From Cellulophaga sp. HaHa_2_95 (GTDB lineage: Bacteria; Bacteroidota; Bacteroidia; Flavobacteriales; Flavobacteriaceae): a stretch of DNA of 64,000 nucleotides. Positions 28,046-59,348 of the stretch are shown one piece after another. The stretch covers positions 3,410,001 through 3,474,000 of the forward strand of contig NZ_CP058988.1 of NCBI RefSeq assembly GCF_019278565.1, given 5' to 3'. A model generated the notes under the pieces. That model was not told where the DNA came from and did not search any database. It saw nothing but the letters and a program-made list of their open reading frames with translations. Both the position numbers and the translations under genes were made by a program. Each line of letters starts with the position of its first letter. Position 1 is the first letter of the stretch.

Positions 28046-28088
28046 TGATATATATCATTTCATAAGACTATTGCGGTTCGTAAATTTA
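28046..28088 (+). promoter_or_regulatory. Crp/Fnr-type box plus promoter of cbpA-cbpM
   Basis: TGATATATATCA (28046-28057) is a perfect palindrome. A -7-like TAAATTTA begins at 28081, exactly 35 bp after the first base of the box. This is the leftmost member of a series of sites with the same geometry in this window. The ATG of cbpA lies 59 bp past the -7 start. Confidence 0.7.
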
Positions 28089-28139
28089 TAGTTACATTAT
28101 TTATACCTACGGGAACATTAATACGGGATACTAGCGCAT

Positions 28140-29048
28140 ATGGAATTCATTGATTATTATAAAGTTTTGGGCATTTCTAAAAATGCTACAGAAAGCGATA
28201 TTAAAAAAGCATATCGCAAATTGGCACGAAAACACCATCCAGACTTAAATCCGGATAATGAAGAAGCTGAGAAAAATTTCAAGAAAATTAATGAAGCTAA
28301 TGAAGTTCTTAGCAATAAAGAGAAGCGTAAAAAATATGACCAATATGGGAAGGATTGGCAGCATGCAGACGAATTTGAAAAACAAAAACAACAGCAGCGT
28401 CAGCATAGCAGACAAAACCCTGGAGGTGCTGGTGGTTTCACTGGTGGCCAGTCTAATGAAGATTTCTCAGACTTTTTTGAAAGTATGTTTGGCGGTCAAC
28501 AAGGAAATTTTAACTCTTCTAGGCAGAATGCCAGATTTAGAGGTCAAGATTATAATGCATCTTTAACCTTAAACCTTACCGATACGTTAACTACGGAAAA
28601 ACAAACCTTAACGGTAAATAATAAAAAAATTCGGATTACAATCCCTGCCGGTATTGAAGATGAGCAGACTATAAAAATTGCAGGCTATGGGGGTCCAGGA
28701 GTTAATAACGGACCTGCAGGAAATTTATTTATAAAATTTACGGTACAAAACAATACAGATTTTACACGCGAAAGAGCAAATCTTTACAAAACAATAGAGG
28801 TACCACTTACCAAGGCAATCTTAGGAGGCGATATCACTATAGATACCCTGACGGGTAAAGTAAAATTAAAAGTAAAGCCCGAAACTCAAAATGGTACTAA
28901 AGTAAAATTGTCCGGAAAAGGCTTACCTAAATACAAAAAGGAAAATCAGTTTGGAGACTTATATATTACGTACCAAGTAAAAATTCCAACCAATTTAACG
29001 AAGGAACAAAAAGAATTATTTGAAGCGCTAGCAGCTACCAATTTATAA
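28140..29048 (+). CDS. cbpA: Curved DNA-binding protein/J-domain co-chaperone CbpA
   Basis: The 302-residue protein has a J domain (1-70) with the catalytic [10 protein letters not shown] (HPD), a Gly/Phe-rich stretch ([12 protein letters not shown]), and the two C-terminal beta-barrel substrate-binding domains (about 135-300, including [21 protein letters not shown] and [17 protein letters not shown]). The DnaJ zinc-finger cysteines are absent, which marks the CbpA class. It would stimulate DnaK and may bind DNA under stress or starvation. It is paired with CbpM 10 nt downstream. Its promoter carries the TGAY-N4-RTCA box, placing it in the same putative stress regulon as the universal stress proteins. 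Confidence 0.92.
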
Positions 29049-29058
29049 AGAGAAGCTT

Positions 29059-29352
29059 ATGGATACACAATTGATACATCTTAATGATTTCTGTACTAGT
29101 TACGAGATAGAAATAACCTTCATTACCGAGTTATACAATTATGATATTATCGAATTAAAAAGTGTTGATGACCATCAATTCATTCCCTTAGAGGAATTAC
29201 CTAAAGTAGAAAAGATGGTACGTCTACACCAAGACCTTAACATAAATATTGAAGGGCTAGAGGCAGTGCATCAATTGCTGCAGCGCAACAGCGCCATGCA
29301 AGAAGAAATACGTCTTCTCAAGCAGAAACTCAACAGATTGGATGCTATTTAA
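29059..29352 (+). CDS. cbpM: CbpA modulator CbpM
   Basis: The 97-residue protein looks like CbpM: an N-terminal MerR-like helical segment (LIHLNDFCTSYEIEITFITEL... DIIEL) and a C-terminal helix (EIRLLKQKLNRLD) that would form a coiled coil. CbpM binds the J domain of CbpA and inhibits its co-chaperone activity. The 10-nt spacing from cbpA and matching order with other genomes support the call. No DNA-binding wing is obvious. Confidence 0.85.
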   Translation: MDTQLIHLNDFCTSYEIEITFITELYNYDIIELKSVDDHQFIPLEELPKVEKMVRLHQDLNINIEGLEAVHQLLQRNSAMQEEIRLLKQKLNRLDAI

Positions 29353-29358
29353 TAATCT

Positions 29359-29574: not shown

Positions 29575-29591
29575 ATTATTTATTTAAATTA

Positions 29592-30266: not shown

Positions 30267-30274
30267 ATGCTTTA

Positions 30275-32613: not shown

Positions 32614-32753
32614 TGGAAGAATATATTCTTTGTGAACTACGAAATAAGGAATGAATTTCATCAAAAACAATGAGATAAATCATATCCTATGATTAAATTT
32701 AGTTGCAAATTCTTAGCTATTACTTAACCATAAGAACTCGCACAATTAAGGAC

Positions 32754-32796
32754 TGACTATTGTCATATTTTAATAACATGATGCAGCTTATTTTTG
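32754..32796 (+). promoter_or_regulatory. Crp/Fnr-type box plus promoter of the FMN-binding protein gene
   Basis: TGACTATTGTCA (32754-32765) and a perfect -7 element TATTTTTG (32789-32796), 35 bp start to start. The -7 element overlaps the TTG start of a longer frame at 32794, so translation must begin further down, at ATG 32836. Confidence 0.78.
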
Positions 32797-32835
32797 TCAA
32801 ATCGATTAGAACAAACAGCTCTTATACCTTACAAA

Positions 32836-36710: not shown

Positions 36711-36780
36711 TAAAAGAATACTACCTGGTACTTGTAGTGATATTTATCATTTGAAACCAGCTTGTATTCTTTTATTTTTG
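36711..36780 (+). promoter_or_regulatory. ackA terminator overlapping a Crp/Fnr-boxed promoter
   Basis: An 11-bp perfect stem (36711-36721 with 36764-36774), extended inside by CTGGT/ACCAG (36725-36729/36756-36760), is followed by a T run and would terminate ackA. In its loop lies TGATATTTATCA (36738-36749), and the T run is part of a perfect -7 element TATTTTTG at 36773-36780, again 35 bp start to start. Terminator and promoter therefore share the same bases. Confidence 0.72.
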
Positions 36781-36814: not shown

Positions 36815-38497
36815 ATGCCATCATTAAAATTACCTAAAAAACAAGATTTAAAAAGATACGGTACGCTATTTAGTGTGCTCTCTAAATATGGTTTTGAAGA
36901 TGTATTGGCCTCAACCCCTTTAAAAAACCTCATCCCTGACGCCTATTTAAAGAAACACCCAGACACTCATAAGCTTCTCTCCTACTCTACTTACGAGCGT
37001 ATTAGAATGGTCCTTGAAGAGTTAGGGCCTAGCTATGTAAAAATGGGACAGGTGATTAGCAATAGAGAAGACATGCTTCCTCCGGAGTTACTAAAAGAAC
37101 TTGTAAAACTTCAGGATAATGTTAAACCTTTGGAAAATTTTAATGTAGCAAAAAAAATAAAGGAAGAATTAGCACTAGATAGCGATGAATGTTTTTCGTA
37201 TATCTCTCCCACTCCACTTGCGGCAGCATCATTAGCACAAGTACATAAGGCACAATTATTAACTGGGGAATGGGTTATTTTCAAAATTCAAAGACCCCAT
37301 ATAAAAGATACCATTGCATCTGATATTTCTATCATGAAGGATGTAGCTAGTGCCTTAGAAAAATATAGTTCTCAAGCACAGCAATTACAACCCATGCAAC
37401 TAATCGCCTCTTTTGAGAAGAGTATTACTGAAGAGCTTAGTTATACCCAAGAACTAAATAATATGCTGCGGTTTTCTAAAAATTTTGAAAACAATGACAT
37501 AATTTATGTTCCTAAGGCTTACAAAGCCTTTAGCAATGATCATATTATTTGCATGGAGTATATTGATGGTATCAAAGTCTCCGAAATAAAAAAATTACAA
37601 GCGCTTAACATTGATACAAAAACAGTAGCCACATTAGGTGTTGATCTTTACTTAGAGCAGATTCTAGATTTTGGCTTTTTTCATGCAGACCCACATCCAG
37701 GGAATATATTTGTGCTACCAGAACAGGAACGTATTTGCTTTATAGATTATGGAATGATGGGCAGTATTATGCCTAAAGACAAAGAATCCTTAGAAGATTT
37801 ATTACTTGCGTTCTTTAAGAAAGATGTCAAAAAAATTATTGTAGTACTCAAAAAAATTGCAATAAGAACCGATATTCCTGATGAAAAAACCCTTGAATAT
37901 GATCTCAATGAGCTCCTTGAAGGCATCAGTAATATTGCTATTCAGCATATAAAATTAGGAGCAACCCTCAGTCAATTCAAAAACATATTATTTAACAATA
38001 AAATTGCTATCCCGCATTATTTGTATATGCTTATACGTGCTTTAGTGATCATTGAAGGTGTTGGATTAAAACTAAATCCTGAATTTAATATTACAGAGAA
38101 TTTAGAACCCTATATGACTACAATTATTCGCAAACGATTAAGTTTTAAAAGGTTTGTAAAAAAGAGCATTGCTAGAGCACAAGACTACACGAATTTAATA
38201 GATACCCTGCCTGAAGATATCAATGATATTATAAGTAAAATAAAAAACGGTAAGTTAGTTATTGTTCATGAACACAAAGGACTACATGAGATTAAAGACA
38301 CACTGAAAACCGCTATCAATAGAATGGTATTTGCTATAATTATAGCGGCACTATCAATTGGGTCGTCTATTTTAGTAATTGCAGATATGCCTCCCAAAGT
38401 AAACGGGATCCCTATTCTGGGTGCTCTAGGGTTTCTAATTTCTGCACTATTAGGTTTTGCCATTTTAATCTCAATTTTTAAAAATCGCAATTTGTAG
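36815..38497 (+). CDS. ABC1/UbiB-family atypical kinase
   Basis: The 560-residue protein is an AarF/UbiB-type protein-kinase-like protein. Family motifs are RMVLEELGPSYVKMGQVISNRED (KxGQ motif), AAASLAQVHKAQL (Ala-rich nucleotide loop), VIFKIQRPHI, FHADPHPGNIFV and CFIDYGMMG (metal-binding). Two C-terminal hydrophobic helices anchor it in the membrane. The family supports quinone biosynthesis or lipid homeostasis through ATPase activity. It is followed after 11 nt by a membrane protein and preceded by a regulon box, so the two form a regulated operon. Confidence 0.9.
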   Translation: MPSLKLPKKQDLKRYGTLFSVLSKYGFEDVLASTPLKNLIPDAYLKKHPDTHKLLSYSTYERIRMVLEELGPSYVKMGQVISNREDMLPPELLKELVKLQDNVKPLENFNVAKKIKEELALDSDECFSYISPTPLAAASLAQVHKAQLLTGEWVIFKIQRPHIKDTIASDISIMKDVASALEKYSSQAQQLQPMQLIASFEKSITEELSYTQELNNMLRFSKNFENNDIIYVPKAYKAFSNDHIICMEYIDGIKVSEIKKLQALNIDTKTVATLGVDLYLEQILDFGFFHADPHPGNIFVLPEQERICFIDYGMMGSIMPKDKESLEDLLLAFFKKDVKKIIVVLKKIAIRTDIPDEKTLEYDLNELLEGISNIAIQHIKLGATLSQFKNILFNNKIAIPHYLYMLIRALVIIEGVGLKLNPEFNITENLEPYMTTIIRKRLSFKRFVKKSIARAQDYTNLIDTLPEDINDIISKIKNGKLVIVHEHKGLHEIKDTLKTAINRMVFAIIIAALSIGSSILVIADMPPKVNGIPILGALGFLISALLGFAILISIFKNRNL

Positions 38498-38508
38498 CAC
38501 TTTACATC

Positions 38509-41874: not shown

Positions 41875-41948
41875 CAAATATGGAACTTATTTTAAAAATT
41901 TACTATGACATTTGTCAGGTATAAAAAATTAAAACTTTATTACTTTCG
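41875..41948. promoter_or_regulatory. Bidirectional Crp/Fnr-type box between sigma-like and patatin operons
   Basis: TGACATTTGTCA (41906-41917). Plus strand: TACTTTCG at 41941-41948, 35 bp from the box start. Minus strand: CATATTTG at 41882-41875, 35 bp from the opposite end. One box may therefore activate both directions. Confidence 0.7.
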
Positions 41949-42794: not shown

Positions 42795-42813
42795 AAATAA
42801 CAAATAAAACCAC

Positions 42814-46337: not shown

Positions 46338-46369
46338 TGATCATAATCAGTTTTAAAGTTTTAACTTTG
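46338..46369 (+). promoter_or_regulatory. Promoter of the LOV kinase with a closer-set Crp/Fnr box
   Basis: TGATCATAATCA (46338-46349) matches TGAY-N4-RTCA, and a perfect -7 element TAACTTTG starts at 46362. The start-to-start distance is 24 bp, not 35, one helical turn closer, so a bound protein would cover the -33 region. This suits autorepression rather than activation. Confidence 0.55.
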
Positions 46370-46374: not shown

Positions 46375-48261
46375 ATGCAAGCTTTTGAAAAGAATAGTAC
46401 CATTTTTAATCTTCTCTCTGAAGGTGTTTCTGAGGGAATCATAGTTGTCAACAAAAAACAAAATGTAGTTGCTTCTAACTCTGCTGCTGAAAAAATGTTC
46501 GGCTATGATAAAGATGAACTAATTGGGCAGCCTCTAGAGATTCTAATTCCTAAAAGATACCATCCAAATCACGATAAACACGTAGATAATTTTATTTCTA
46601 AGAGTGAAAAACGGCAAATGGGTCACGGTCGTGAATTATTTGGTGTACGTAAAAACGGAGAAGAATTTCCTTTAGAAGCAGGCCTAAACCCTTTTGAGTT
46701 ATATGACACTACTTATGTCATGGCACTAGTTATAGACATTACCAATAGAAAGGCCGTAGAGAAAGATTTAAGAATGAAGAGTGAAGCACTACAATCTGCT
46801 TCCAATGGAATTGTAATCTCTGATGCCTTAAAACCGGACAATCCTATTATTTATTGCAATGCTTCTTTTCAAACGCTAACAGGGTATTCTGAAGAAGAGA
46901 CTATAGGCAAGAATTGTAGATTCTTACAAGGTGATGACAAGGACCAAGACTGCATCGTCAACATGCGAAATGCCATAAAAAAAGGAGAAAGCTCACAAGC
47001 TATTTTACGAAACTATAGAAAAGATGGAAGTCTTTTTTATAATGATTTATACATTACACCAATTAAAGACAAGTTTGGAACTATTACCAATTATATTGGA
47101 ATACAGAATGATGTCACAGAGCGTGTAAAAAGTCAGCAAGAAAAAGAACATTGGGCAAAAATTTTTAATGAATCTTTAAATGAAATATTCTTATTTGACA
47201 AAGATTCATTAAGGTTTATAAATGCTAATAAAGGGGCTCAAAATAATATTGGCTATTCTTTAAAAGAACTCAAGCAGCTTACCCCTGTTGACATTAAACC
47301 AAATTTTACAGAAATCGAGTTTAGAAAGGTTTTGGTTCCTTTAATTACAAATGAGGAAGAAAAAATAAAATTTGAGACAGTACATCAAAGAAAAGATGGC
47401 ACACAATACCCAGCAGAAGTACATTTACAACTATCGAGATTTGGGGATCAAGATGTTTTTTTGGCCATCATATTAGACATCACAGATCGAAAAAATTACA
47501 CCCTTAAATTAGAGAAAACGGTTCAAGAACGCACCAAGCAATTAACAGAAGCCTTAGCTAAAGAAAAAGAACTCAACGAATTGAAAACTAGATTTTTATC
47601 ACTGGTTTCTCATGAATTTAAAACGCCGCTTAGTAGTATTTTAACGTCTATTACCTTACTTGCCAAATACACACAAACAGAGCAACAGGAAAAAAGAGAT
47701 AAACATGTCAATACTATAAAAAGCAAAGTACGATATCTAGATACTATTCTAACAGATTTCTTATCGGTAGAACGTTTAGATTCCGGAAAAATAAATTACA
47801 GTTTAGAAGAGTTTCCGTTGAGTAAATTATTGGATGATGTAATTTACAACGCCAACATGCTTTTAAAAACAGGACAGCGCATTAGCTATCCTAGAAATAT
47901 AGATGACCTTTTCATCTATTTTGATGAAAAAACCTTGGCATTAGCCTTATCCAATTTGGTGCATAATGCTATTAAGTACTCTCCCGAAGACACTGCTATT
48001 GATATCATCGTAGAACATACTACGGAAACCATTGAAATAAAAGTGGTAGATCATGGCATAGGAATCCCCGAAGAAGAGCAAAAACACATATTTAATCGCT
48101 ATTTTAGAGCTGAAAATGCACTTTTAACACAAGGAACTGGAATAGGACTAAACATCGCTAAACAGCATTTAGAAAATTTAGGCACTAGTTTAGACTTTAC
48201 AAGTTCGGAAAATGAAGGGTCTATATTTACGATAACCATACCAAAAGATTTAAAGCAATAA
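46375..48261 (+). CDS. PAS-LOV-PAS sensor histidine kinase
   Basis: The 628-residue cytosolic kinase has three PAS domains. PAS1 (10-125) aligns with FixL in the helix F/G-strand region: His66 in NHDKHV and Arg86 in MGHGREL match the FixL haem-ligand His and distal Arg with identical 20-residue spacing; many non-haem PAS domains share this pattern too. PAS2 (135-250) is a LOV domain with GKNCRFLQG (Cys181, flavin adduct), Asn162, NYRKDG Asn213, F-x-N Asn223 and YIGIQND Gln244. PAS3 spans 258-372. After a coiled coil come VSHEFKTPLSS (His413), NLVHNAIKYS, DHGIGIP and GTGIGLNIAK. It lies 4 nt before the receiver-Crp regulator and is surely its kinase. Confidence 0.93.
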   Translation: MQAFEKNSTIFNLLSEGVSEGIIVVNKKQNVVASNSAAEKMFGYDKDELIGQPLEILIPKRYHPNHDKHVDNFISKSEKRQMGHGRELFGVRKNGEEFPLEAGLNPFELYDTTYVMALVIDITNRKAVEKDLRMKSEALQSASNGIVISDALKPDNPIIYCNASFQTLTGYSEEETIGKNCRFLQGDDKDQDCIVNMRNAIKKGESSQAILRNYRKDGSLFYNDLYITPIKDKFGTITNYIGIQNDVTERVKSQQEKEHWAKIFNESLNEIFLFDKDSLRFINANKGAQNNIGYSLKELKQLTPVDIKPNFTEIEFRKVLVPLITNEEEKIKFETVHQRKDGTQYPAEVHLQLSRFGDQDVFLAIILDITDRKNYTLKLEKTVQERTKQLTEALAKEKELNELKTRFLSLVSHEFKTPLSSILTSITLLAKYTQTEQQEKRDKHVNTIKSKVRYLDTILTDFLSVERLDSGKINYSLEEFPLSKLLDDVIYNANMLLKTGQRISYPRNIDDLFIYFDEKTLALALSNLVHNAIKYSPEDTAIDIIVEHTTETIEIKVVDHGIGIPEEEQKHIFNRYFRAENALLTQGTGIGLNIAKQHLENLGTSLDFTSSENEGSIFTITIPKDLKQ

Positions 48262-48265: not shown

Positions 48266-49315
48266 ATGAAAACTATTTTATTAATTGAGGATGATAGAGC
48301 ACTTCGTGAGAACACAGAAGAACTCTTAGATCTAGCGGGTTATGCAGTAACTACTGCTCCTAATGGTAAAATAGGAATTGTATCTGCTAAAGAATTATTG
48401 CCAGATATTATACTTTGTGATATTATGATGCCAGAGGTAGATGGCTATGGAGTTTTAAAAGCACTTCATGAAGATGAAATTACAAAGCAAATTCCTTTTA
48501 TTTTTCTGTCAGCAAAAACAGAACATAAAGAAATTAGAAAAGGGATGGATTTAGGTGCCGATGATTATTTGACCAAACCTTTTGAAGAAGAAGATTTAAT
48601 TAGTGCTATTGAAAGTAGGCTGGCCAAACATGAGATTTTAAAACAAAATGCTGTTTCAGATCATAAACAGGAAACTACGGAAGATGATATTCTAGACCTC
48701 AATGAATTAAAGAATTTTTTTGATGATAATGGAGACGAATTGACCTTCTCACAAGGTGATATTATCTATAAAGAAGGCCAAGCTTCTAACACCATTTTTT
48801 TGGTTCTAAAAGGAGTTGTCAAATGTCATTCTATGGATGAAGACGGAAAACAATTAATTACGTCTTTGTACCGAGGAGATGATTTCTTAGGCTTTACTTC
48901 TTTCTTAAAAAATGTCCCTTATCAAGAATCTGCTACGGCAATGGAAGATGTGGTTTTGGCGGGTATTTCTAAAGAAAACTTAAAAGAAATTTTAGAAAAA
49001 AATCATGCTATTTCTTTAGAGCTGGTAGAATTACTATCGGGAAACATAAAAGAAATTAAACAGCAACTGCTGCAAATGGCCTATAGTTCTGTACGAAAAA
49101 AAACAGCTCAAACCTTATTACAATTTGCCGATATTATGACCACGCAAGCAGATGAGCCTATCAAAATTTCTAGAAGTGATTTGGCGAGCGTTGCGGGTAT
49201 TGCCACAGAAAGTTTAATACGTACGTTATCCGGCTTCAAAAAAGAAGGCTTAATTGAAATAGAAGGCCGAAATATTAAGATTAAAGAGCTCAAAGCACTC
49301 CAATACATCACCTAA
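48266..49315 (+). CDS. Receiver-Crp/Fnr fusion transcription factor
   Basis: The 349-residue protein joins a receiver (1-122; DD 9-10, Asp52 in CDIMMPEVDG, Lys104 in LTKPF) to a Crp/Fnr cyclic-nucleotide-type beta-roll (about 150-265), a dimerisation helix and a C-terminal HTH_Crp (about 300-340; SDLASVAGIATESLIRTLSGF). The cAMP-binding Arg-Ser pair is absent (ESATA), so phosphorylation rather than cAMP is the probable input. Recognition-helix Glu315 and Arg319 have the Glu-x3-Arg spacing that reads TGA in Crp/Fnr boxes. Kinase partner lies immediately upstream. It is the natural candidate to bind the TGAY-N4-RTCA boxes across 28-59 kb. Combining FixJ-like and FixK-like parts in one chain is unusual. 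Confidence 0.92.
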   Translation: MKTILLIEDDRALRENTEELLDLAGYAVTTAPNGKIGIVSAKELLPDIILCDIMMPEVDGYGVLKALHEDEITKQIPFIFLSAKTEHKEIRKGMDLGADDYLTKPFEEEDLISAIESRLAKHEILKQNAVSDHKQETTEDDILDLNELKNFFDDNGDELTFSQGDIIYKEGQASNTIFLVLKGVVKCHSMDEDGKQLITSLYRGDDFLGFTSFLKNVPYQESATAMEDVVLAGISKENLKEILEKNHAISLELVELLSGNIKEIKQQLLQMAYSSVRKKTAQTLLQFADIMTTQADEPIKISRSDLASVAGIATESLIRTLSGFKKEGLIEIEGRNIKIKELKALQYIT

Positions 49316-49342: not shown

Positions 49343-49385
49343 TGACCGTTGTCATTTTTTGAGTTCTTAGGGCTTTATACCTTCG
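49343..49385 (+). promoter_or_regulatory. Crp/Fnr-type box plus promoter of the first USP gene
   Basis: TGACCGTTGTCA (49343-49354), and -7-like TACCTTCG (49378-49385), 35 bp start to start. The ATG is 31 bp past the -7 start. Confidence 0.75.
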
Positions 49386-50264: not shown

Positions 50265-50307
50265 TGACAATTGTCATAGGGATTTAATACGCCAAAAGAT
50301 ATTTTTG
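50265..50307 (+). promoter_or_regulatory. Crp/Fnr-type box plus promoter of the second USP operon
   Basis: TGACAATTGTCA (50265-50276), a perfect palindrome, and perfect -7 element TATTTTTG (50300-50307), 35 bp start to start; ATG 32 bp past the -7 start. The clearest copy of the series. Confidence 0.82.
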
Positions 50308-50331: not shown

Positions 50332-51177
50332 ATGAAAACTATCTTAATCCCAACCGATTTTTCAGAAAATGCAATGCATGCTATAAATTACGCCCTGCAG
50401 TTGTACAAATGCGAGCAAACCGTTTTTTATTTTGTGCACGCCTATGCCGATGAAGTTTATGGTTTTTTAAAAAATAGTGCAGATACGTCTATTTCAGACC
50501 GAACAACTAACATCGAAATTCAAGTAAAAGAGTTACTTAATGAATTAATTAGTTCAAAAGAACAGAAAGTACATAACCCCAAACATACTTACAAAGCGAT
50601 AGCCTCTTTTGAGTCTTTGGTTGATGCTGTTAATGACACAGTTAATCTATTTAACATTGACCTCATCATTATGGGAACCAAAGGTAAAACAGCAAATAAA
50701 AGCATCACCTTTGGCAGCCATACGGTACAAGTATTCAAATATGTAAAATGCCCTGTTCTTGCTATCCCTGAAACGTATACCTACCAACACCCTAAAAAAA
50801 TTCTATTCCCAACAGACTATAATTTACCCTATAAACGCAGGGAATTAAAGCTCTTAGACACCTTATGTCAGGAATTCAAATCTGAAGTTCATTGCCTTCA
50901 TATATCCGATTTTGAAGATTTAAGCATGCGCCAAATAGATAACAAAAAATTTCTTGAAGATGCTCTACCCAATGCCTATTTAAGTTTTGAACAGACTGCA
51001 GTACAAAATAGAGTTACTGGTATTATGAATACCATTGATGAAAAAGCTATAGACCTATTAGTAATGACAAATTCTCGTCATTCCTTTTTAGAAGACATGT
51101 TATATAGATCTACCATAGATGAAATAGGTCTTAAAATCCATTTACCCTTTTTAGTACTTCAAAATTTATCACGTTAA
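50332..51177 (+). CDS. Universal stress protein (double UspA domain) 2
   Basis: The 281-residue protein begins ILIPTDFSENAMHAINYAL and has IMGTKGKTANKSITFGSHTVQVF in domain 1. Domain 2 (from KILFPTDYNLPY) ends DLLVMTNSRHSFLEDMLYRSTIDEIGLKIHLPFLVL, a tail shared by all the paralogues. It is the first gene of a two-gene operon with the next USP 13 nt downstream. Confidence 0.93.
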   Translation: MKTILIPTDFSENAMHAINYALQLYKCEQTVFYFVHAYADEVYGFLKNSADTSISDRTTNIEIQVKELLNELISSKEQKVHNPKHTYKAIASFESLVDAVNDTVNLFNIDLIIMGTKGKTANKSITFGSHTVQVFKYVKCPVLAIPETYTYQHPKKILFPTDYNLPYKRRELKLLDTLCQEFKSEVHCLHISDFEDLSMRQIDNKKFLEDALPNAYLSFEQTAVQNRVTGIMNTIDEKAIDLLVMTNSRHSFLEDMLYRSTIDEIGLKIHLPFLVLQNLSR

Positions 51178-51190
51178 TACGCTCATACGC

Positions 51191-52030
51191 ATGAAAAATA
51201 TACTTATCCCAACAGATTTTTCAGAAAATTCATGGAATGCTATTGCCTACGGATTGTCGTTATTTAAAAAAACAAAATGCACTTTTCACCTGATCCACGT
51301 AAGTCCGGTTCTAGCAGCTAGCGCAGGAGAAATGGCGATGGTTTTGCCTCCTGAAATTATGGAAGAGAACTTACTGAAAGAAAGTTTAGAAAAATTAGAT
51401 GCTCTTTTAGAACGCATAGAAAAATTGCCTTTTAACACTAAACACGAATTTCATACCGCTGCCAATTATGGTTTCTTTATTGATCATATAAAAAATGATG
51501 TAGCTACTAAGAAAATAGATCTTATTATTATGGGCACCAAAGGTGCTTCTGGTATAAAAAAAGTAGCTTTGGGTAGTAATACGGGACACGTAATTACAAA
51601 AGTAAAATGTGCCGTATTAGCCGTACCAGAAGAAACAAGCTATCAGAAACCACAGCGCATTGGTTTTCCTACAGATTACATTATTGATTACGATTTAAAT
51701 ATCTTAGCGCTTTTAAAAGATGTAACGTTATTGACCAATGCGCAGCTTAATTTTTTACATGTTGAGAGTAAACATGAAACTATGAGCGCTCTACAATTAA
51801 AAAATAAAGAATTTCTAGCACATTATTTCAAAGAAATAACGCATAATTTTAGCAACCTAGAAAGCCACAATTTAGATACAGCTATTGATAGGTTTATCCA
51901 TACCGAAAAGGTAGATATGTTAGTAATGGTCGCTAAAAACTTAAATTTTTTAGAGCGCATCCTATTCAGACCCACCGTAGAAGACATAAGCTACCATATT
52001 AGCATCCCTTTTTTGGTTTTACACGAATAA
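51191..52030 (+). CDS. Universal stress protein (double UspA domain) 3
   Basis: The 279-residue protein begins ILIPTDFSENSWNAIAYGL, with IMGTKGASGIKKVALGSNTGHVI in domain 1 and a degenerate second domain (RIGFPTDYIIDYDL). It is co-transcribed with the preceding USP and converges on the thioredoxin gene, 18 bp between stops. ATP-binding is expected only in the first half. Confidence 0.93.
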   Translation: MKNILIPTDFSENSWNAIAYGLSLFKKTKCTFHLIHVSPVLAASAGEMAMVLPPEIMEENLLKESLEKLDALLERIEKLPFNTKHEFHTAANYGFFIDHIKNDVATKKIDLIIMGTKGASGIKKVALGSNTGHVITKVKCAVLAVPEETSYQKPQRIGFPTDYIIDYDLNILALLKDVTLLTNAQLNFLHVESKHETMSALQLKNKEFLAHYFKEITHNFSNLESHNLDTAIDRFIHTEKVDMLVMVAKNLNFLERILFRPTVEDISYHISIPFLVLHE

Positions 52031-52048: not shown

Positions 52049-52345
52049 CTAGTTAGATTTGATGATATTTACGATATCATTTTTTTGGAGCACTCCAGAT
52101 TGTCGCCAAAGTTGTTTTCCATTTTTAAATAACATCATGGTAGGTACCCCTCTAACTTGATATTTTGAAGCCAAAGTTTGGTTTTTATCTACATCAATCT
52201 TTACAATCTTAACGGCGTCTCCCATCTCCTCTTTTACCTGCCTTAAAATGGGCGCCAAAGTTTTACAAGGTCCGCACCAATCAGCAAAAAAATCAATTAA
52301 TACTGGTGTATCTGAGTCTATTATTTTATCGAAACTACTTTTCAT
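52049..52345 (-). CDS. Thioredoxin
   Basis: The 98-residue protein is a single thioredoxin domain with the active site DWCGPCKTL (Cys24, Cys27), cis-Pro in RGVPTMMLF and KIDVDKNQTLASKYQV. There is no signal peptide, so it is cytosolic. It is the only minus-strand gene in this part of the island, divergent from a USP pair, and a -7-like TAAATTTA at 52376-52369 lies 35 bp from the shared box. Probably a stress-induced paralogue rather than the housekeeping copy. Confidence 0.95.
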   Translation of the reverse strand: MKSSFDKIIDSDTPVLIDFFADWCGPCKTLAPILRQVKEEMGDAVKIVKIDVDKNQTLASKYQVRGVPTMMLFKNGKQLWRQSGVLQKNDIVNIIKSN

Positions 52346-52368: not shown

Positions 52369-52442
52369 TAAATTTATAAAATACAGCAGAGTTCTGAACT
52401 GATTTATATCATAATTTTATTGGATTATGTTGGGTACTTTTA
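52369..52442. promoter_or_regulatory. Bidirectional Crp/Fnr-type box between thioredoxin and USP 4
   Basis: TGATTTATATCA (52400-52411). Plus strand: TACTTTTA at 52435-52442. Minus strand: TAAATTTA at 52376-52369. Both -7-like elements start exactly 35 bp from the respective box edge, and both start codons lie 31 bp beyond. The symmetry strongly suggests one dimer serving two promoters. Confidence 0.75.
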
Positions 52443-52465: not shown

Positions 52466-53302
52466 ATGAAAAAAATATTGCTCCCAACTGATTTTTCTGA
52501 TAACTCATTTAAAGCGATAACCTATGCTTTAAAGGTCTACAAAGATATCAAATGCACCTTCTATCTTTTGCACACCTATAACCCATCTGTGTATCAAACA
52601 GAATACTTAATTGGCAGCCCTGGATTAATAGGTCTAGGAGATGTTATGAAAGAAACAGCACTGACAAATAGTAAAGAATTAAAAGATAAAATTGAATTAG
52701 AATACCCCAACCCTAAACACACGTTTAAAACACGTGTTGTATTTAATACGCTTCTGAATGAAGTTCTTGAAATGACCACTAATGAAGGTATAGATCTTGT
52801 TGTGATGGGTACCAAAGGTGTCTCCGGTGCTGAAGAAATATTGTTTGGAAGTAATGCGGTACATATCATAAAAAAAACAAAATGTCCTCTGATTGTTGTT
52901 CCAGATTCTTTTGCCTATGAAGCACCAAAAGAAATTTTATTTCCTACAGATTTTGAAATCACCTATCCTAAAAAAGAAATTGAAAGCCTTTTACAAGTAG
53001 TTAAACAGCACAAATCTCAAGTTAATATACTGCATATTAGAAAAGCCATTGAGCTTAACATGGTACAGAAAGAACATAAGAAACAATTGGATAGACTAAT
53101 GGTCAATCATGCTATTTTTCATGAAGTACCAGACAATGAAGTTATTACAGCCATAAACGATTTTCAATTAAAAAGAAAAATTAATCTCTTGGTAATGATT
53201 CAAAATAAGCATACCTTTTTTGAAAGACTATTCATAGAACCTGTGTTAAAAAAGGTCGGTTTTCATGTCACTATACCGTTCATGGTCATTCCTCAACTTT
53301 AA
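52466..53302 (+). CDS. Universal stress protein (double UspA domain) 4
   Basis: The 278-residue protein begins ILLPTDFSDNSFKAITYAL, with VMGTKGVSGAEEILFGSNAVHII in domain 1 and LFPTDFEITYPKKEIESL opening domain 2. It is the first gene of a pair; USP 5 follows after 9 nt. The promoter region is shared with thioredoxin. Confidence 0.93.
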   Translation: MKKILLPTDFSDNSFKAITYALKVYKDIKCTFYLLHTYNPSVYQTEYLIGSPGLIGLGDVMKETALTNSKELKDKIELEYPNPKHTFKTRVVFNTLLNEVLEMTTNEGIDLVVMGTKGVSGAEEILFGSNAVHIIKKTKCPLIVVPDSFAYEAPKEILFPTDFEITYPKKEIESLLQVVKQHKSQVNILHIRKAIELNMVQKEHKKQLDRLMVNHAIFHEVPDNEVITAINDFQLKRKINLLVMIQNKHTFFERLFIEPVLKKVGFHVTIPFMVIPQL

Positions 53303-53311
53303 AAAATTAAA

Positions 53312-54160
53312 ATGAAATCTATATTAGTAGCAACAGACTTTTCAAATGATGCATACTGTGCATTGTTTTACGGAACAAAATTATTTAAAGAAACCGCTTG
53401 TACTTTTTATATTTTGAATGTGTATGATGAGCTTACGCCTCTAAAAAATAAAAGGGCTCCTTTCTTATCCAATAAAAACGAACTAGAAGAAATTGAAGCG
53501 CAATCTAATACTGCTTTAGAAAAACTGATTCATAAAATAACCTTAGATACAGAAAATCCTAATCACAAGTTTGTTCCACTTTCTAAAGAAGGCAATCTCT
53601 CTAAGAACATAAAAAACACTACTAAAACATATGATATAGATCTTGTTTTAGTAGGTAGTAAAGGAGAAACTGGCGCTAAAGAATTGTTCTTTGGCAGCAA
53701 CACTATACAAATTACAAACGCCATATCCAACTGTCCCATATTAGCTATCCCTAAACAAATCGAATATACTGCGCCTAAAGAAATTGCATTTGTAACAGAT
53801 TATAAGCAAGGGTGTTCCTTAACTAATATTGCGCCCCTTTTATTTATTGCTAAACAAACAAATGCTGCCATACGAGTTATGCATATTATAGAAGAAGCGA
53901 GCTTAGATGCAGAGCAAGAACTCAAACATAAATTATTAGAAAATTGCCTAAAAGAGTATCAGCATTCTTTTACGACAATGAAAGAATTTAGTGATAAAGC
54001 AAAGGTTATCCACGAATTTATTGCTGCTCGCGAAATAGATTTGTTTTGTATGGTGCATCAAAAAAGAAATTTTTTAGAGAAGTTACTACGAGAACCTGTG
54101 ATAAAAGATGTTAGTATGTATGCCAATATTCCGTTTCTAATACTTCCGAGTTTGGAGTGA
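53312..54160 (+). CDS. Universal stress protein (double UspA domain) 5
   Basis: The 282-residue protein begins ILVATDFSNDAYCALFYGT and has LVGSKGETGAKELFFGSNTIQIT, with Ser replacing the Thr of the usual GTKG loop. Domain 2 (EIAFVTDYKQG) is the most divergent of the set. The stop codon overlaps the box of the next operon (54158-54169), so its end is embedded in the downstream control region. Confidence 0.92.
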   Translation: MKSILVATDFSNDAYCALFYGTKLFKETACTFYILNVYDELTPLKNKRAPFLSNKNELEEIEAQSNTALEKLIHKITLDTENPNHKFVPLSKEGNLSKNIKNTTKTYDIDLVLVGSKGETGAKELFFGSNTIQITNAISNCPILAIPKQIEYTAPKEIAFVTDYKQGCSLTNIAPLLFIAKQTNAAIRVMHIIEEASLDAEQELKHKLLENCLKEYQHSFTTMKEFSDKAKVIHEFIAAREIDLFCMVHQKRNFLEKLLREPVIKDVSMYANIPFLILPSLE

Positions 54161-54200
54161 TAATTGTCATAGAAAAGTTCCTTGAGTACAATTAAATTTA
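54158..54200 (+). promoter_or_regulatory. Crp/Fnr-type box plus promoter of the USP 6 operon
   Basis: TGATAATTGTCA (54158-54169) and -7-like TAAATTTA (54193-54200), 35 bp start to start. The box begins within the stop codon of USP 5. Confidence 0.75.
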
Positions 54201-54227: not shown

Positions 54228-55067
54228 ATGAATAAACGCATCTTAATTCCTACTGATTTTTCAAAAAATGCTTTAAATGCAGCACGTTATGCCTTGGATT
54301 TATATGAAAAGCAAAATTGTGAATTTTACTTTTTAAATGTATTTCACGTAGATGGTTATACTACCGACTACTTGGCACTCCCAGAACCGGGTAGTCCTGA
54401 TTATGATGCAGCCCTAGAAGCATCTGAGAAAGCCTTTGAAAAATTAGTAGAGGTACTCGCATTACATAATGACAACCCAAAACATCAATATCATACTATT
54501 TCTAGTTTAAATTTTCTATCTGAAGCAATGAAACATATTATTGCTAAAGAAGCAATTGATTTAGTCGTTATGGGCACTCAAGGTGCCACCGGTCACAAAG
54601 GAATTATTTTTGGGAGCAATACCGTAAAGGCTATGGAAAAAATTACAGCTTGCCCTGTTCTCGCTATTCCAGAAATGGTACGCTTCACACCTATTAAGGA
54701 AATAGTATTTCCTACCGATTTAAAAACAAATTATAAGTCCAAAGAACTAGATTATCTAATAGATATAGCTAGAATGCATGGATCAGCAATACGCATACTT
54801 CATATCACTAATACAGAAGAATTATCTACTACGCAGCAAGATAGTAAAGAATATTTAGAAACCATTTTTAGTACTATAGAGTGTACATTTCATACACTCA
54901 CAGGATTGAGCGTAGCGAAAGGCATCACCACATTTGTAGCGAGTAGAGGCAGTAGTATGATTGCATTTATAAACCGTTCTCATTTTTTCTTTGGAACCGT
55001 ATTTTCAAAGCCCTTAATTAAAGAGATTGGCTACGAAGCCACAACACCTATTCTTGCGCTTCATTAA
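54228..55067 (+). CDS. Universal stress protein (double UspA domain) 6
   Basis: The 279-residue protein begins ILIPTDFSKNALNAARYAL; the loop is VMGTQGATGHKGIIFGSNTVKAM (Gln in place of Lys). It leads a probable five-gene operon with MscS, the ATP-cone/nuclease fusion, the beta-CASP hydrolase and the dehydrogenase, all with gaps of 1-32 nt. Confidence 0.93.
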   Translation: MNKRILIPTDFSKNALNAARYALDLYEKQNCEFYFLNVFHVDGYTTDYLALPEPGSPDYDAALEASEKAFEKLVEVLALHNDNPKHQYHTISSLNFLSEAMKHIIAKEAIDLVVMGTQGATGHKGIIFGSNTVKAMEKITACPVLAIPEMVRFTPIKEIVFPTDLKTNYKSKELDYLIDIARMHGSAIRILHITNTEELSTTQQDSKEYLETIFSTIECTFHTLTGLSVAKGITTFVASRGSSMIAFINRSHFFFGTVFSKPLIKEIGYEATTPILALH

Positions 55068-55099
55068 TATTATTAGTAACCCTATTCCTATATATTTTC

Positions 55100-55999
55100 A
55101 TGGAAACTTTAAATACCTTCTTAGAACATCCTACATCTTTAAAAATAGCCAAGCTAGCGCTATGGGTCGTGGTTATTGTAGCAAGTATTAGTTTCTTAAG
55201 GAAAGTATTAAAGAAAAGAATTGCAGATTTAGCGATACGCTATAAGGCACAAAAAGGCGTAGAAATCATTGGCTACGTACTAATTGCTCTATTAATCCTT
55301 ATCTCTTTCACCGTAAAAAACTTGGAAGATTACACCATTATAATTGGCTTATTCACGGCCGGTATAACGTTTACACTTCAAGAGTTAATTTTGAGTATAG
55401 CAGGATCATTTTATATTTTCTTTGTCCGTGTTTATAAGCCAGGCGATCGGATAGAAATAAACGGAATAAAGGGAGATGTTATAGATATTGATAGTATCTA
55501 TACCACTTTAATGGAAATGGGAGAATGGGTAAGCAGCGATAACTATTCCGGTAGAATTGTAAAAATTAGCAATGCCTTTGTTTTTAAGGGTCCTATTAAA
55601 AACTATTCAATGGATTTCCCTTTTGTTTGGGACGAATTAAATATTCTTATCACCTACGAATCTGATTTAGACCTTGCAAAAAAAATAGTCCTAGAACAAG
55701 CAGAATTACTTTTAGCTGATTACACAGAAAAATCTATTGCAAAGTGGGAAGAAATGGTAGAACGCTACTATATTGAAGATTCTAAGCTAGCCCCTTCAAT
55801 CGCCATTAATTTAACAGACAATTGGGTGGCTATAAACTTACGTTATATCACAGATTATAAAAAAAGAAGAGCTACAAAGCACGAATTACTTGAATTAATT
55901 CAACGAGAAATTAAAGCTACCCGAGGTACAGTAAGCTTTGCCTCTACTACGCTACAATTACTTAAAATACCCGAAGTAGACGTACAACTAAAAAAATGA
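55100..55999 (+). CDS. MscS-family mechanosensitive channel
   Basis: The 299-residue protein has about three N-terminal helices (17-37, 52-72, 76-110). The last contains the pore-type TAGITFTLQELILSIAGSFYIFF, which lines up with the MscS TM3 and leads into the beta domain VYKPGDRIEINGIKGDVIDIDSIYTTLMEM. The Gly/Ala pattern of TM3 is reduced compared with E. coli MscS. It should gate on membrane tension and protect against osmotic downshift. It is second in the USP 6 operon. Confidence 0.88.
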   Translation: METLNTFLEHPTSLKIAKLALWVVVIVASISFLRKVLKKRIADLAIRYKAQKGVEIIGYVLIALLILISFTVKNLEDYTIIIGLFTAGITFTLQELILSIAGSFYIFFVRVYKPGDRIEINGIKGDVIDIDSIYTTLMEMGEWVSSDNYSGRIVKISNAFVFKGPIKNYSMDFPFVWDELNILITYESDLDLAKKIVLEQAELLLADYTEKSIAKWEEMVERYYIEDSKLAPSIAINLTDNWVAINLRYITDYKKRRATKHELLELIQREIKATRGTVSFASTTLQLLKIPEVDVQLKK

Positions 56000-56000
56000 T

Positions 56001-56846
56001 ATGGAACCTGCTATGACCATTGAAGTAACGAAATCTTCAGGAGAAAAAGCACTTTTTTCTTTAGATAAATTACGTAATTCCCTAAAATATAGTGGTGCCA
56101 ATCATAACCTAATAGAAGAAATTCTTTCTAAAGTAAAGGAGGAACTTTATGAAGGTATTTCTACACAAGAAATTTACAATAGAGCTTTTGCGCTTTTAAA
56201 AAGAAATAAATCGGTTTTTGCCTCTAAATACAAGCTAAAAAAAGCCATCTATGAATTAGGCCCAACAGGCTTTCCTTTTGAACGTTTTGTGGCTGCGATT
56301 TTAACTTATTCTGGATACACAACTACCGTTGGTGAAATTCTAAACGGAATTTGTGTTACCCATGAGATAGATGTGATTGCAGAAAAAAATAATAAAGCGG
56401 CTATTATTGAATGTAAATTTCATTCAGAAGAAGGTCGTAACTGTAATGTTAAGATTCCGCTATACATTCATTCTCGGTATAGGGATGTTAAAACATTTTG
56501 GGAAACAAAATCAACAGAAAAACGGGTTATCGATAAAGGTTGGGTGGTAACTAATACAAGATTCACAAGCGATGCTATTGCCTATGGCCATTGTGCTGGT
56601 CTCTACTTATTAAGTTGGGATTTCCCTCAAAAGGAAGGATTAAAAGATAGAATAGATCGTTTGAGTTTATATCCCATCACCGTTTCTACGCTACTAACAA
56701 ATAAAGAGAAGCATTATCTCTTAAATAGAGACGTGGTACTCTGCAGACAACTCTGGAAAGAACAATTTTTATTAGATCATTTAGGTATTTCCAATTCTAG
56801 AAAAACAAGTATTATCAATGAGCTTAAACAACTTTGTAATCCTTAA
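56001..56846 (+). CDS. ATP-cone domain fused to PD-(D/E)XK nuclease-like domain
   Basis: The 281-residue protein starts with an ATP-cone (about 5-90; EVTKSSGEKALFSLDKLRNSLKYSGA, as in ribonucleotide reductase and NrdR). It is followed by a restriction-endonuclease-like Mrr_cat-type domain (about 90-200) with Asp124 in HEIDVIAE and Glu137-Cys-Lys139 in AIIECKFH, the PD-(D/E)XK catalytic set. The C-terminal 75 residues are unassigned. The fusion suggests a nuclease controlled by ATP or dATP level. There is no methylase partner, so it is not a standard restriction system. Gap to the MscS gene is 1 nt and to the next gene 3 nt. Confidence 0.87.
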   Translation: MEPAMTIEVTKSSGEKALFSLDKLRNSLKYSGANHNLIEEILSKVKEELYEGISTQEIYNRAFALLKRNKSVFASKYKLKKAIYELGPTGFPFERFVAAILTYSGYTTTVGEILNGICVTHEIDVIAEKNNKAAIIECKFHSEEGRNCNVKIPLYIHSRYRDVKTFWETKSTEKRVIDKGWVVTNTRFTSDAIAYGHCAGLYLLSWDFPQKEGLKDRIDRLSLYPITVSTLLTNKEKHYLLNRDVVLCRQLWKEQFLLDHLGISNSRKTSIINELKQLCNP

Positions 56847-56849
56847 TTT

Positions 56850-58220
56850 ATGAAAAATGCAAAAATTCACTTTCTAGGCGCCTCTGGTACCGTTACTGGA
56901 TCTAAATTTTATATAGAAACTCCAGACATAAACATCATGGTAGATTGTGGCATGTTTCAAGGATTAAAAGAGCTCCGTGAAATAAACTGGACTCCCTTAC
57001 CTATCAATGTTTCTAAAATAGATGTTGTGCTACTTACGCACGGACATTTAGACCACACTGGTTACTTACCTCGTCTCGTAAAAGAAGGATTTAGAGGGAA
57101 AATAATAGGTACGGCTCCTACTTTAGCTATTGCAGAAATTATACTTTTGGATAGTGGTAAAATTCAGGAAGAAGAGGCAGTGAGAGCTAACGAAGAAGGG
57201 TATAGCAAGCATCACCCAGCAATTCCATTTTATACCATAGATGAAGCTAAAAACACCATTACAAAGTTCGAAGCTGCAGATAGCGGAAAGTGGCTTCAAC
57301 TCTCTGACGCTGTTAAATTTAGATTCCGATACAACGGACATATTATTGGTGCTACATTTATCGAGCTTGATATTAATGGTAAAATAGTAGTTTTTTCCGG
57401 TGATATTGGAAGAGTTGAGGACGTATTACTCTCAAAACCAGAAAAACCAGAATGGGCAGATTATTTATTTTTAGAAAGTACTTACGGAAATAAACTACAT
57501 CCTAAAGAAGATGTAGAGGGCATGCTAGTTGCTTTAGTACATAAGACAATTACGAATGGCGGAAACTTAATTATCCCTTCGTTTGCCGTAGAACGTTTAC
57601 AATCGTTAATGTACACCCTATGGCAATTATACAAAAAAAACAAAATTCCGAACATTCCTATATTTATTGATAGTCCAATGGGTAACAATGTACTATCTGT
57701 ATTTGAGGAATTTCCTGAGTGGCATAAATTATCTTCCGAGGAATATGAAGCTATGTGCAACCATTTTAATATAATAACTTCCTATGCCGATACATGGAAA
57801 ACTATTGATAATCCACGACCTAAAATAATTATTGCGGGAAGCGGTATGGTTACTGGCGGTCGTGTTTTAACCTATTTAAAACAAATGATAGGCAAAACCT
57901 CAACAACTGTATTACTTGCAGGTTATCAGGCAGAAGGCACACGCGGCAGACAGTTATTAGAAGGCGCTCACGAATTGAAAATTTTTGGAAAATACTACCC
58001 TATTAAAGCATCCATTCAGCATTTAGAAAGTTTGTCTGCCCATGCAGATCAAAACGAATTACTTGATTGGTTGAGTGCAATAAAAAATATACCAGAAAAC
58101 GTATTTTTAATTCACGGAGAGCCCAATGCTTTAGATATATTTAAAGTGAAAATTAGAGATGAATACCATTGGAATGTTACTATTCCAAAATTAAATGATA
58201 CAGCAATATTAATAGTATAA
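56850..58220 (+). CDS. MBL-fold beta-CASP hydrolase (RNA-processing type)
   Basis: The 456-residue protein has the metallo-beta-lactamase motif LTHGHLDHTG (His64, His66, Asp68, His69), the FSGDIGR strand and a beta-CASP insert ending in SGMVTGGRVLTYLKQM, followed by the C-terminal KASIQHLESLSAHADQNELLDW and FLIHGEPNAL (RNA-specificity region). This is the CPSF73/YsmI-like group, which act on RNA in known members. Together with the nuclease fusion upstream it suggests nucleic-acid turnover under stress. Confidence 0.92.
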   Translation: MKNAKIHFLGASGTVTGSKFYIETPDINIMVDCGMFQGLKELREINWTPLPINVSKIDVVLLTHGHLDHTGYLPRLVKEGFRGKIIGTAPTLAIAEIILLDSGKIQEEEAVRANEEGYSKHHPAIPFYTIDEAKNTITKFEAADSGKWLQLSDAVKFRFRYNGHIIGATFIELDINGKIVVFSGDIGRVEDVLLSKPEKPEWADYLFLESTYGNKLHPKEDVEGMLVALVHKTITNGGNLIIPSFAVERLQSLMYTLWQLYKKNKIPNIPIFIDSPMGNNVLSVFEEFPEWHKLSSEEYEAMCNHFNIITSYADTWKTIDNPRPKIIIAGSGMVTGGRVLTYLKQMIGKTSTTVLLAGYQAEGTRGRQLLEGAHELKIFGKYYPIKASIQHLESLSAHADQNELLDWLSAIKNIPENVFLIHGEPNALDIFKVKIRDEYHWNVTIPKLNDTAILIV

Positions 58221-58232
58221 GTACAACCACAC

Positions 58233-59219
58233 ATGAAAATATTATTTTACAGCAGTAAAGATTTTGAAATTCCGTTTTTAAAAAACGGAAATACCAAAAA
58301 TCAAGAACTAGATTTTATTCCGGAATCACTAACAAGTGAAAGTGCTTTAAAAGCAACGGGCTACAATGCTATTTCTATTTTTTCAGGAGATGATGCCTCC
58401 TCGCTAGTCTTAGAAAAACTCTGGGCACTAGGTGTCCGCTACATCACCTTGCGTTCCGCTGGTTATAACAATTTAAATCTGGGTGCCGCCAAAAATTATG
58501 GTTTCAAGGTCGCAAATGCACCAGACTATTCTCCTTACGCTATTGCAGAACATGCTACAGCCTTATTATTAGCTTTAAACCGTAAAATAGTTACGGCCAA
58601 TACGCAAGTAAAAGCTTATAATTTTGTACAGGATAATTTAATGGGCTTTAATTTAAGAGGTAAAACTGTAGGGTTAATTGGCACAGGTAGTATTGGTGCT
58701 GCTATGGCAAGTATCATGCATGGTTTTGGTTGTACAATTTTAGCCTATGATATTGCTCCCAACTATGAATTAGAAACTGCCTATAATTTAAAGTACAAAA
58801 GTTTAGATCAGCTCTGTAGCGCATCAGATATTATAAGCTTGCACATACCCCTTACGGAAGATAATCACTATCTCATTAACAAAGAACGAATGGCTTTAAT
58901 GAAAAAGAATGTAATTATCGTAAATACCGCTAGAGGTGCGCATGTAAATACTTTAGCTATTATTGATGCCCTTGAAAACAAACAAATTGCTGGCTATTGC
59001 ACCGATGTATATGAAAAAGAAGCCGGAACTTTTTTTAAAGACTTTTCAAGCGAAGAATTAAAAGATGATACCTTAAAAAAGCTTTTAAGTTTACCTAATG
59101 TGCTGTTAACTCCACATCAGGGATACATGACCAATGAAGCCTTACAGCATATTGCCGAGTTAACATTTGATAACTTGAACTCGTGGAATGAAAATAAGAA
59201 GAGTCGCCATGAATTATAA
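58233..59219 (+). CDS. D-2-hydroxyacid dehydrogenase (D-lactate dehydrogenase-like)
   Basis: The 328-residue protein begins MKILFYSSKDFEI; it has the substrate Arg region YITLRSAGYNNLNL, YAIAEHATALLLAL, the NAD-binding GLIGTGSIGAAMASIMHGFG, VNTARGAHVNTLA (catalytic Arg) and LTPHQGYMTNEAL (catalytic His). These match fermentative LdhA-type enzymes that reduce pyruvate to D-lactate, though other 2-ketoacids are possible. It is last in the USP 6 operon and fits with pta-ackA and pfkB as an anaerobic energy set. Confidence 0.9.
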   Translation: MKILFYSSKDFEIPFLKNGNTKNQELDFIPESLTSESALKATGYNAISIFSGDDASSLVLEKLWALGVRYITLRSAGYNNLNLGAAKNYGFKVANAPDYSPYAIAEHATALLLALNRKIVTANTQVKAYNFVQDNLMGFNLRGKTVGLIGTGSIGAAMASIMHGFGCTILAYDIAPNYELETAYNLKYKSLDQLCSASDIISLHIPLTEDNHYLINKERMALMKKNVIIVNTARGAHVNTLAIIDALENKQIAGYCTDVYEKEAGTFFKDFSSEELKDDTLKKLLSLPNVLLTPHQGYMTNEALQHIAELTFDNLNSWNENKKSRHEL

Positions 59220-59303
59220 TAATGTAATAAAAACCATTCCTGATTAAATTATCCAATTAATAAAAAATTTTAGAAATGTTAAAAATTGTTAAAATACCTC
59301 TAA

Positions 59304-59348
59304 TGTAACTCGGGTTACAGATAGCATTAATGTAATAGTTTAATTTTA
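59304..59348 (+). promoter_or_regulatory. Variant Crp/Fnr-type inverted repeat plus promoter of the peroxiredoxin gene
   Basis: TGTAAC-TCGG-GTTACA (59304-59319). Its core TAAC-N4-GTTA starts at 59306, and the -7-like TAATTTTA starts at 59341, again 35 bp. The half-site is TAAC instead of TGAC/TGAT, so a related regulator or a variant site is possible. Confidence 0.6.

Follow-up and report, generated by a model that had tools for sequence, protein, structure and literature searches.

Promoter sequences were analyzed across a 64,000-nucleotide stretch of the Cellulophaga sp. HaHa_2_95 genome (positions 3410001-3474000 of a single contig of 4.54 Mb; hereafter “the window”). There, an island of genes lies behind promoters in which a TGAY-N4-RTCA palindrome (the “box”) precedes a TAnnTT-type -7 element at a start-to-start distance of exactly 35 bases, an arrangement that is confirmed by the statistics below. 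The island also encodes a histidine kinase and a response regulator that joins a receiver (REC) to a Crp-type output (REC-Crp). Our best reading, which we favor with some reservation, is that this pair forms a shortened version of the FixL-FixJ-FixK relay and that REC-Crp would drive a low-oxygen/survival island.

The window contains 12 TGAY-N4-RTCA palindromes, eight of which are followed by a forward TAnnTT at distance 35. Across both strands, 10 box+35+TAnnTT matches were found, i.e., these eight, a reverse match at 52400, and a weak reverse match at 46338, while dinucleotide shuffles led to an expectation of 0.14 (standard deviation 0.43, maximum 3) and 0 of 100 shuffles reached 10. Of the 12 distances of 13-69 bases found between a box and TAnnTT[TC][GA] in the window, nine were equal to 35. 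The eight forward pairs and a ninth with a TAAC variant of the box had been listed in an earlier sequence-only reading, and their positions and common distance of 35 all proved exact. That reading had also proposed a genome-wide scan, which did reveal an enrichment: box+35+TAnnTT yielded 27 matches vs 9 for the reversed pattern (18 vs 3 with TAnnTTTR), and when 29 spacings were allowed between box and TAnnTTTG, 10 of 22 matches fell at exactly 35 (binomial P ~1e-9).

Comparison with related promoters, proposed as a further check, also brought out this spacing. We used the 80 closest of at least 295 confirmed relatives of the island regulator, with loci of up to 21 kb from related Flavobacteriia (counts out of 81 below include the window). 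All 80 loci contained at least one box+35 site, and distance 35 collected 409 counts compared to 0-23 for each of the other 44 distances. Of the 540 palindromes in these loci, 449 had TAnnTT at 35 in at least one direction (40 of them in both directions), whereas seven control spacings gave 4 to 31 of the same palindromes. Secondary spacings of 23/24 and much of the 36 class correspond to the kinase promoter.

The geometry agrees with that of class II Crp/Fnr promoters, as had been suggested. A logo of 482 unique sites displayed A or C immediately 5' of TGA (C 57%, A 37%, T 2%), T after TCA (95%), an AT-rich spacer, and TAnnTTTR; the FixK/FNR box has the form TTGAT-N4-ATCAA, and the island box does not take this form, given T before TGA at only 2% of sites. 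Logo positions 18-34, i.e., -29 to -13, are without consensus. The consensus of the -33 element is TTG, and a TTG starting at -38 to -30 was found for 71 of the 482 boxed sites vs 348 of 1739 TAnnTTTG elements without a box, i.e., TTG was no commoner at boxed promoters and no good -33 sigma element was seen. Transcript mapping in Flavobacterium psychrophilum assigns TAnnTTTG to positions -12 to -5 (PMC9723704), and together with the spacing of 35 this placement puts the palindrome center at -41.5. From these features, the island appears to be a regulon of conserved class II Crp/Fnr-type promoters, whose mechanism would itself be ordinary: a Crp-type activator dimer would bind ATGAY/CTGAY-N4-RTCAT at -41.5, replacing the -33 element, and recruit RNA polymerase to the TAnnTTTR -7 element.

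Kinase and response regulator of the island

The histidine kinase gene (window positions 46375..48261, forward strand) encodes a heme-type PAS domain similar to those of FixL and DosP, a LOV domain with NCRFLQ, a third PAS domain, HisKA, and HATPase. It is followed by the gene for REC-Crp (48266..49315, forward strand), the proposed island activator, in which the receiver precedes a cNMP-binding fold (PF00027, 2e-17) and HTH_Crp_2 (PF13545, 1.9e-12), two matches that place it in the Crp/Fnr superfamily. REC-Crp starts with its receiver and no N-terminal iron-sulphur cysteine cluster of the FNR kind was seen by eye; FixJ consists of a receiver and a LuxR-type HTH, an output other than the one found here, and the regulator also differs from the NarL-like protein that defines a DosR regulon. 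The window REC-Crp is 98% identical to a C. baltica protein, and of 149 genomes sampled from the class, 74, its own included, contain a full-length relative (E-value up to 1e-60), the other relatives being 39-48% identical among the matches listed. The kinase adjoins REC-Crp in 80 of 80 related loci, and the kinase H-box, the receiver Asp52, and residues A313, E315, I318, and R319 of the recognition helix are invariant in 81 of 81.

Searched alone against the PDB, the first PAS domain (PAS1) gave FixL (1d06, 1.8e-14) and DosP (9cdr, 5.6e-14) as its best matches, and His66, aligned to the FixL histidine that we take to be the heme ligand, is found in all 81 kinases. PAS1 is thus a probable heme-binding sensor of low oxygen. 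The best PDB matches of the second domain, PAS2, are LOV proteins. Photoactive LOV domains are marked by a GxNCRFLQ cysteine and flavin-contact Asn/Gln, both of which the window kinase has by sequence; the cysteine motif is also present in the kinases of genomes G016, G013, and G009. This LOV domain may add a blue-light input in the window species.

REC-Crp is most likely the main activator of the island, switched on via phosphorylation by the adjacent kinase. Specifically, low oxygen would be registered by the PAS1 heme, the kinase would phosphorylate REC-Crp, and the island promoters would be turned on, the functions of FixL, FixJ, and FixK being compressed into two proteins. The output would be a survival programme including six universal stress proteins (USPs), thioredoxin, CbpA-CbpM, acetate fermentation through Pta-AckA, a lactate-type dehydrogenase, a cation pump, and PfkB.

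The kinase promoter carries its own box, although at a differing position. In 73 of the 81 loci, a box stands close to where the kinase gene begins, with a reverse -7 at 35 in 57 (58 matches, one locus being counted twice), and the kinase's own -7 stands at a spacing of 21-24 in 31 loci and of 36 in 20. In the window, where pfkB lies upstream on the same strand and there is no divergent gene, box TGATCATAATCA and -7 TAACTTTG (46338..46369, forward strand; -7 at 46362) abut the kinase gene at a spacing that is still 24, with a center at ~-30.5, so that the box overlaps the -33 region. With the -7 element placed at -12 to -5, the kinase transcript is predicted to start one base before the ATG, i.e., to be near leaderless. 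The position of the box suggests negative feedback, in which the regulator would probably repress its own operon.

Proposed assignment of the activator

REC-Crp was assigned as the probable activator because of its location, its co-occurrence with boxes, and a difference in spacer bases. Among 18 Cellulophaga genomes, kinase and REC-Crp occur in the same six, and genomes with REC-Crp have more box+35 sites than those without, both per genome (mean 24.8 vs 9.4, Mann-Whitney p 4e-4) and per Mb (5.5 vs 2.4, p 6e-4). In three of the six, a paralogue contributes further sites; the three for which no paralogue was listed have 18, 16, and 16, compared to a maximum of 14 in the twelve genomes without REC-Crp. 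USP matches follow the same trend, with means of 19.2 vs 7.5. A box+35 site lies upstream of pta in six of six genomes with REC-Crp vs one of four without (Fisher p 0.033; an eleventh pta match, in G007, was excluded as not an orthologue), and in two of these six it is kept with pta far from the island. Finally, G013 and G009 encode a second REC-Crp, which lies in a separate stretch rich in boxes, again with the -7 at 35 (loci L159-L163, L166, and L167), beside which the G013 kinase also starts with a PAS domain matching DosP and FixL. In these two relatives, the spacer is YTAR at 10 of 21 sites round the second REC-Crp vs 0 of 14 round the first (p 0.002).

These observations can be extended into a more far-reaching proposal, which we put forward tentatively and would sooner doubt than rely on. 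A one-step FixL-FixJ-FixK relay would be widespread in Bacteroidia, with a heme-PAS kinase (plus a blue-light LOV in the Cellulophaga baltica group) phosphorylating a Crp-type activator. This activator would control a dormancy island via one fixed class II code and have its own synthesis limited by a box at ~-30, and two paralogues in one genome would use different spacer bases.

Several observations weigh against the relay and its attribution to REC-Crp. For the sensor, Arg86, which we take to align to FixL Arg220, is present in only 72 of 81 kinases, and PAS domains that bind no heme may carry the histidine motif as well; in the other 80 kinases aligned, either the LOV domain as a whole or its NCRFLQ cysteine is absent, and light was rejected as a conserved, general signal on this ground. 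For the island, content besides USP varies and most other window genes are found in few related loci: pta and ackA are in none of the 80 (20-kb stretches), and cbpA occurs in 16 and is never directly behind a box. As to the genome comparisons, these count related species as independent, the G014 kinase match is limited to residues 247-627 and carries a stop flag, and one genome without REC-Crp has a box at pta. Some of the YTAR sites counted in the two relatives are orthologous to one another, and if G013 is taken by itself, YTAR occurs at 0 of 8 sites round the first REC-Crp vs 6 of 15 round the second (p 0.058).

Other explanations have to be set against the same data. A chance or composition artefact of an AT-rich genome would fit the free-gap scan, whose total is barely enriched (22 vs 16 for the reversed control) and to that extent also counts against us, as well as the 17 genome matches outside the window: a same-strand open reading frame (ORF) of at least 80 codons starts within 400 bases of 10 of them and of none of the other 7, so that some are probably chance. 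However, with a total close to the control and 10 of 22 matches at 35, the signal resides in the spacing, and the shuffles and the distribution of spacings, with 449 palindromes of 80 loci at one value, exclude this explanation for the arrangement as a whole, to which we give next to no credence. It also seems to us very improbable that a box-binding Crp/Fnr-type protein mainly represses these promoters and is released on stress. The kinase-promoter box, overlapping the -33 region at spacings of 21-24, does have a repressor-like place, but a single exact position at -41.5 without a -33 element suits a required activator, and repression would need no single exact spacing.

The weightier rival is an FNR-like protein (genome positions 4512145-4512867, minus strand), which would directly activate the island boxes plus cbb3 oxidase and hemN-like genes and leave REC-Crp a minor or modulating part. 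Recognition helices of the two are near-identical (ATESCIRVISEFKK vs ATESLIRTLSGFKK), and the T-E-S-x-I-R they have in common weighs against our attribution as well, since the box alone cannot tell which protein binds. We tried the box core as a discriminator and found it useless: E-x-x-I-R recurs in each of the four helices examined, following A-T in those of REC-Crp, the paralogue, and the FNR-like protein; the fourth belongs to the 573-kb protein. Box+35 sites also stand upstream of the FNR-like gene itself and of nearby USP, ccoS-ccoN, and hemN-like radical SAM genes (ccoS and hemN being presumed names, from protein starts, and CcoN being identified by Pfam COX1 and FixO). Cellulophaga genomes without REC-Crp contain 1 to 14 box+35 sites, including the one boxed pta, and G017, without the island REC-Crp, has four around its own FNR-like gene, their order and spacing unchanged; in 11 related loci, moreover, a boxed ccoN-like gene is in the same stretch as REC-Crp. 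The box is therefore not exclusive to the island, and with such a helix and the same promoter geometry elsewhere, the FNR-like protein probably shares some island-type sites. Yet we think it unlikely to be the principal activator: site numbers climb with REC-Crp presence, 79 of the 80 REC-Crp loci contain a USP gene, with a box+35 site at most 350 bases upstream in 77 of the 79, and within a single genome the spacer type differs according to which REC-Crp paralogue is nearby. The sequence-only reading had proposed a single Crp/Fnr-type activator for the whole island without mentioning REC-Crp; a suitable Crp-type protein is indeed encoded there, and the word “single” is weakened by sites possibly shared with the FNR-like protein. 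We retain REC-Crp as the likely main activator.

Promoters and genes of the island

Window positions are given below, on the forward strand unless indicated. Box TGATATATATCA and -7 TAAATTTA (28046..28088; -7 at 28081) are upstream of cbpA-cbpM (28140-29352). Box TGACTATTGTCA and -7 TATTTTTG (32754..32796; 32789) precede the gene for a PNPOx-like flavoprotein, whose start codon is uncertain, followed by pta and ackA (to 36708), while an ABC1/UbiB-like kinase and an MgtC/DUF4010 protein (36815-39777) stand behind box TGATATTTATCA and the same -7, TATTTTTG (36738..36780; 36773). Patatin, cation P-type ATPase, and PfkB genes (41976-46277) follow box TGACATTTGTCA and -7 TACTTTCG (41906..41948; 41941). 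After the kinase and REC-Crp genes, box TGACCGTTGTCA and -7 TACCTTCG (49343..49385; 49378) are upstream of usp1 (49409-50245), and box TGACAATTGTCA and -7 TATTTTTG (50265..50307; 50300) of usp2-usp3 (50332-52030). The palindrome at 52369-52442 is bidirectional, with thioredoxin and usp4-usp5 divergent and a -7 at exactly 35 on each side: box TGATTTATATCA and -7 TACTTTTA (52400..52442; 52435) serve usp4-usp5 (52466-54160), and the same box read in reverse with -7 TAAATTTA (52369..52411, minus strand; from 52376 downwards) lies upstream of thioredoxin (52049-52345, minus strand). Finally, box TGATAATTGTCA and -7 TAAATTTA (54158..54200; 54193) are upstream of usp6, MscS, an ATP-cone/Mrr nuclease, a beta-CASP hydrolase, and a D-2-hydroxyacid dehydrogenase (54228-59219). 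By Pfam, the island content comprises CbpA-CbpM, PNPOx-like, Pta-AckA, ABC1 kinase, MgtC/DUF4010, patatin, cation ATPase, and PfkB proteins, together with the six USPs, thioredoxin, MscS, ATP-cone nuclease, beta-CASP hydrolase, and D-2-hydroxyacid dehydrogenase. The list of controlled genes proposed earlier left out pta-ackA, which follow the FMN-binding protein, as well as the kinase-regulator pair, and it included a peroxiredoxin that probably belongs to another regulon.

This peroxiredoxin gene (59384) and an MBL-rhodanese (metallo-beta-lactamase-rhodanese) gene (60128) follow box GTAACTCGGGTTAC and -7 TAATTTTA (59305..59348; 59341), which we assign to a different Crp-type regulon. The TAAC variant had been taken as part of the same regulon; it extends to GTAAC-N4-GTTAC, which with TAnnTT at the same spacing occurs 11 times in the genome vs once for the reversed control and is found in 18 of 18 Cellulophaga genomes, and on the basis of this separate genome-wide set we rejected peroxiredoxin as a member of the island regulon. 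Four GTAAC boxes cluster at 2223-2228 kb (2223529-2227715), near another Crp-type gene at 2228 kb, and in relatives the box precedes peroxiredoxin, MBL-rhodanese, TauE-type exporter, and FAD/NAD oxidoreductase genes, among others. For the shorter TAAC-N4-GTTA in the 80 related loci, 19 distances to the -7 equal 35 and at most three fall at any other value. The GTAAC set is apparently a sister regulon with the same geometry, for sulfur/redox genes.

Other genes behind a box in the related loci encode a 134-aa protein (62), an S30AE ribosome factor (17), a ccoN-like oxidase (11), an M50-CBS protease (7), and Hsp20 (5). Pfam searches covered a single example of each of the 134-aa, S30AE, M50, and Hsp20 proteins, as well as the window genome's own CcoN; the one 134-aa example scanned had no Pfam match. 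Outside the island, box+35 sites are also found at genes for an MCRA-family (oleate hydratase-like) protein, ClpB, DHBP synthase, and glycerol-3-phosphate dehydrogenase (L003, L005, L006, and L008). A further site, at genome position 1456912 (L004), has similar sites in G013 and G016 and no ORF of at least 80 codons within 400 bases downstream; it may serve a short gene or RNA.

Comparison with known systems

The regulator architecture, i.e., a kinase/REC-Crp pair shortening FixL-FixJ-FixK, and the breadth of the promoter code are probably new: no description of REC-Crp was recognized from titles and abstract starts, with subscription journals largely outside this coverage. If correct, our reading would make the promoters for low-oxygen survival readable as a code in a major marine bacterial group and show genes of the lxa/DosR type to be controlled by a different sort of regulator, and the oxygen, perhaps light, input would be directly testable.

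FixL-FixJ-FixK is the oxygen cascade of rhizobia and Burkholderia. The island would share with it a heme-PAS-type kinase, a response regulator, a Crp/Fnr-type output, class II sites, and, in 11 related loci, a nearby ccoN-like oxidase gene; unlike in that cascade, receiver and Crp output are joined in one protein, the FixJ step is gone, and the box is A/C-TGAY and not TTGAT. FNR/Anr regulons likewise combine class II sites with fermentation targets, and USP genes are among the targets on both sides, whereas REC-Crp carries a receiver and, by eye, no iron-sulphur cysteine cluster. Induction of USP by Anr has been reported, as has the presence of FixLJ-FixK in B. dolosa.

The lxa locus of Burkholderia cenocepacia, which is activated by low oxygen, has six USPs, a phosphofructokinase, and a link to a Crp-type regulator, and gene numbers also place a phosphate acetyl/butyryl transferase and a protein of the metallo-beta-lactamase type within it (PMC6127331, PMC9104464). 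Island and lxa locus are thus alike in their six USPs, phosphofructokinase, phosphate acetyltransferase-type and metallo-beta-lactamase genes, and Crp-type regulator; unlike here, where REC-Crp and the kinase lie inside the island, the lxa regulator BCAM0049 is a separate gene with a homologue under FixLJ.

According to PMC8044303 and PMC6127331, the mycobacterial DosR dormancy regulon shares two-component control, USPs, the cation ATPase CtpF, and phosphofructokinase, the last being assigned to the regulon in PMC6127331, while a study cited in PMC8044303 puts the pfkB cluster as DosR-independent. The loci of relatives add Hsp20, the S30AE ribosome factor, and the M50-CBS protease to this likeness. 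DosR itself has a NarL/LuxR-type output and its own box, unlike REC-Crp. NmpRSTU of Myxococcus xanthus resembles the proposed system in heme-dependent kinase signaling and in a regulon with cbb3 oxidase and hemN, and differs in its NtrC-like regulator and protoglobin sensor (PMC11841059). By our best reading, the shortened relay would drive an island for low oxygen and dormancy that is akin to the lxa locus and the DosR regulon.

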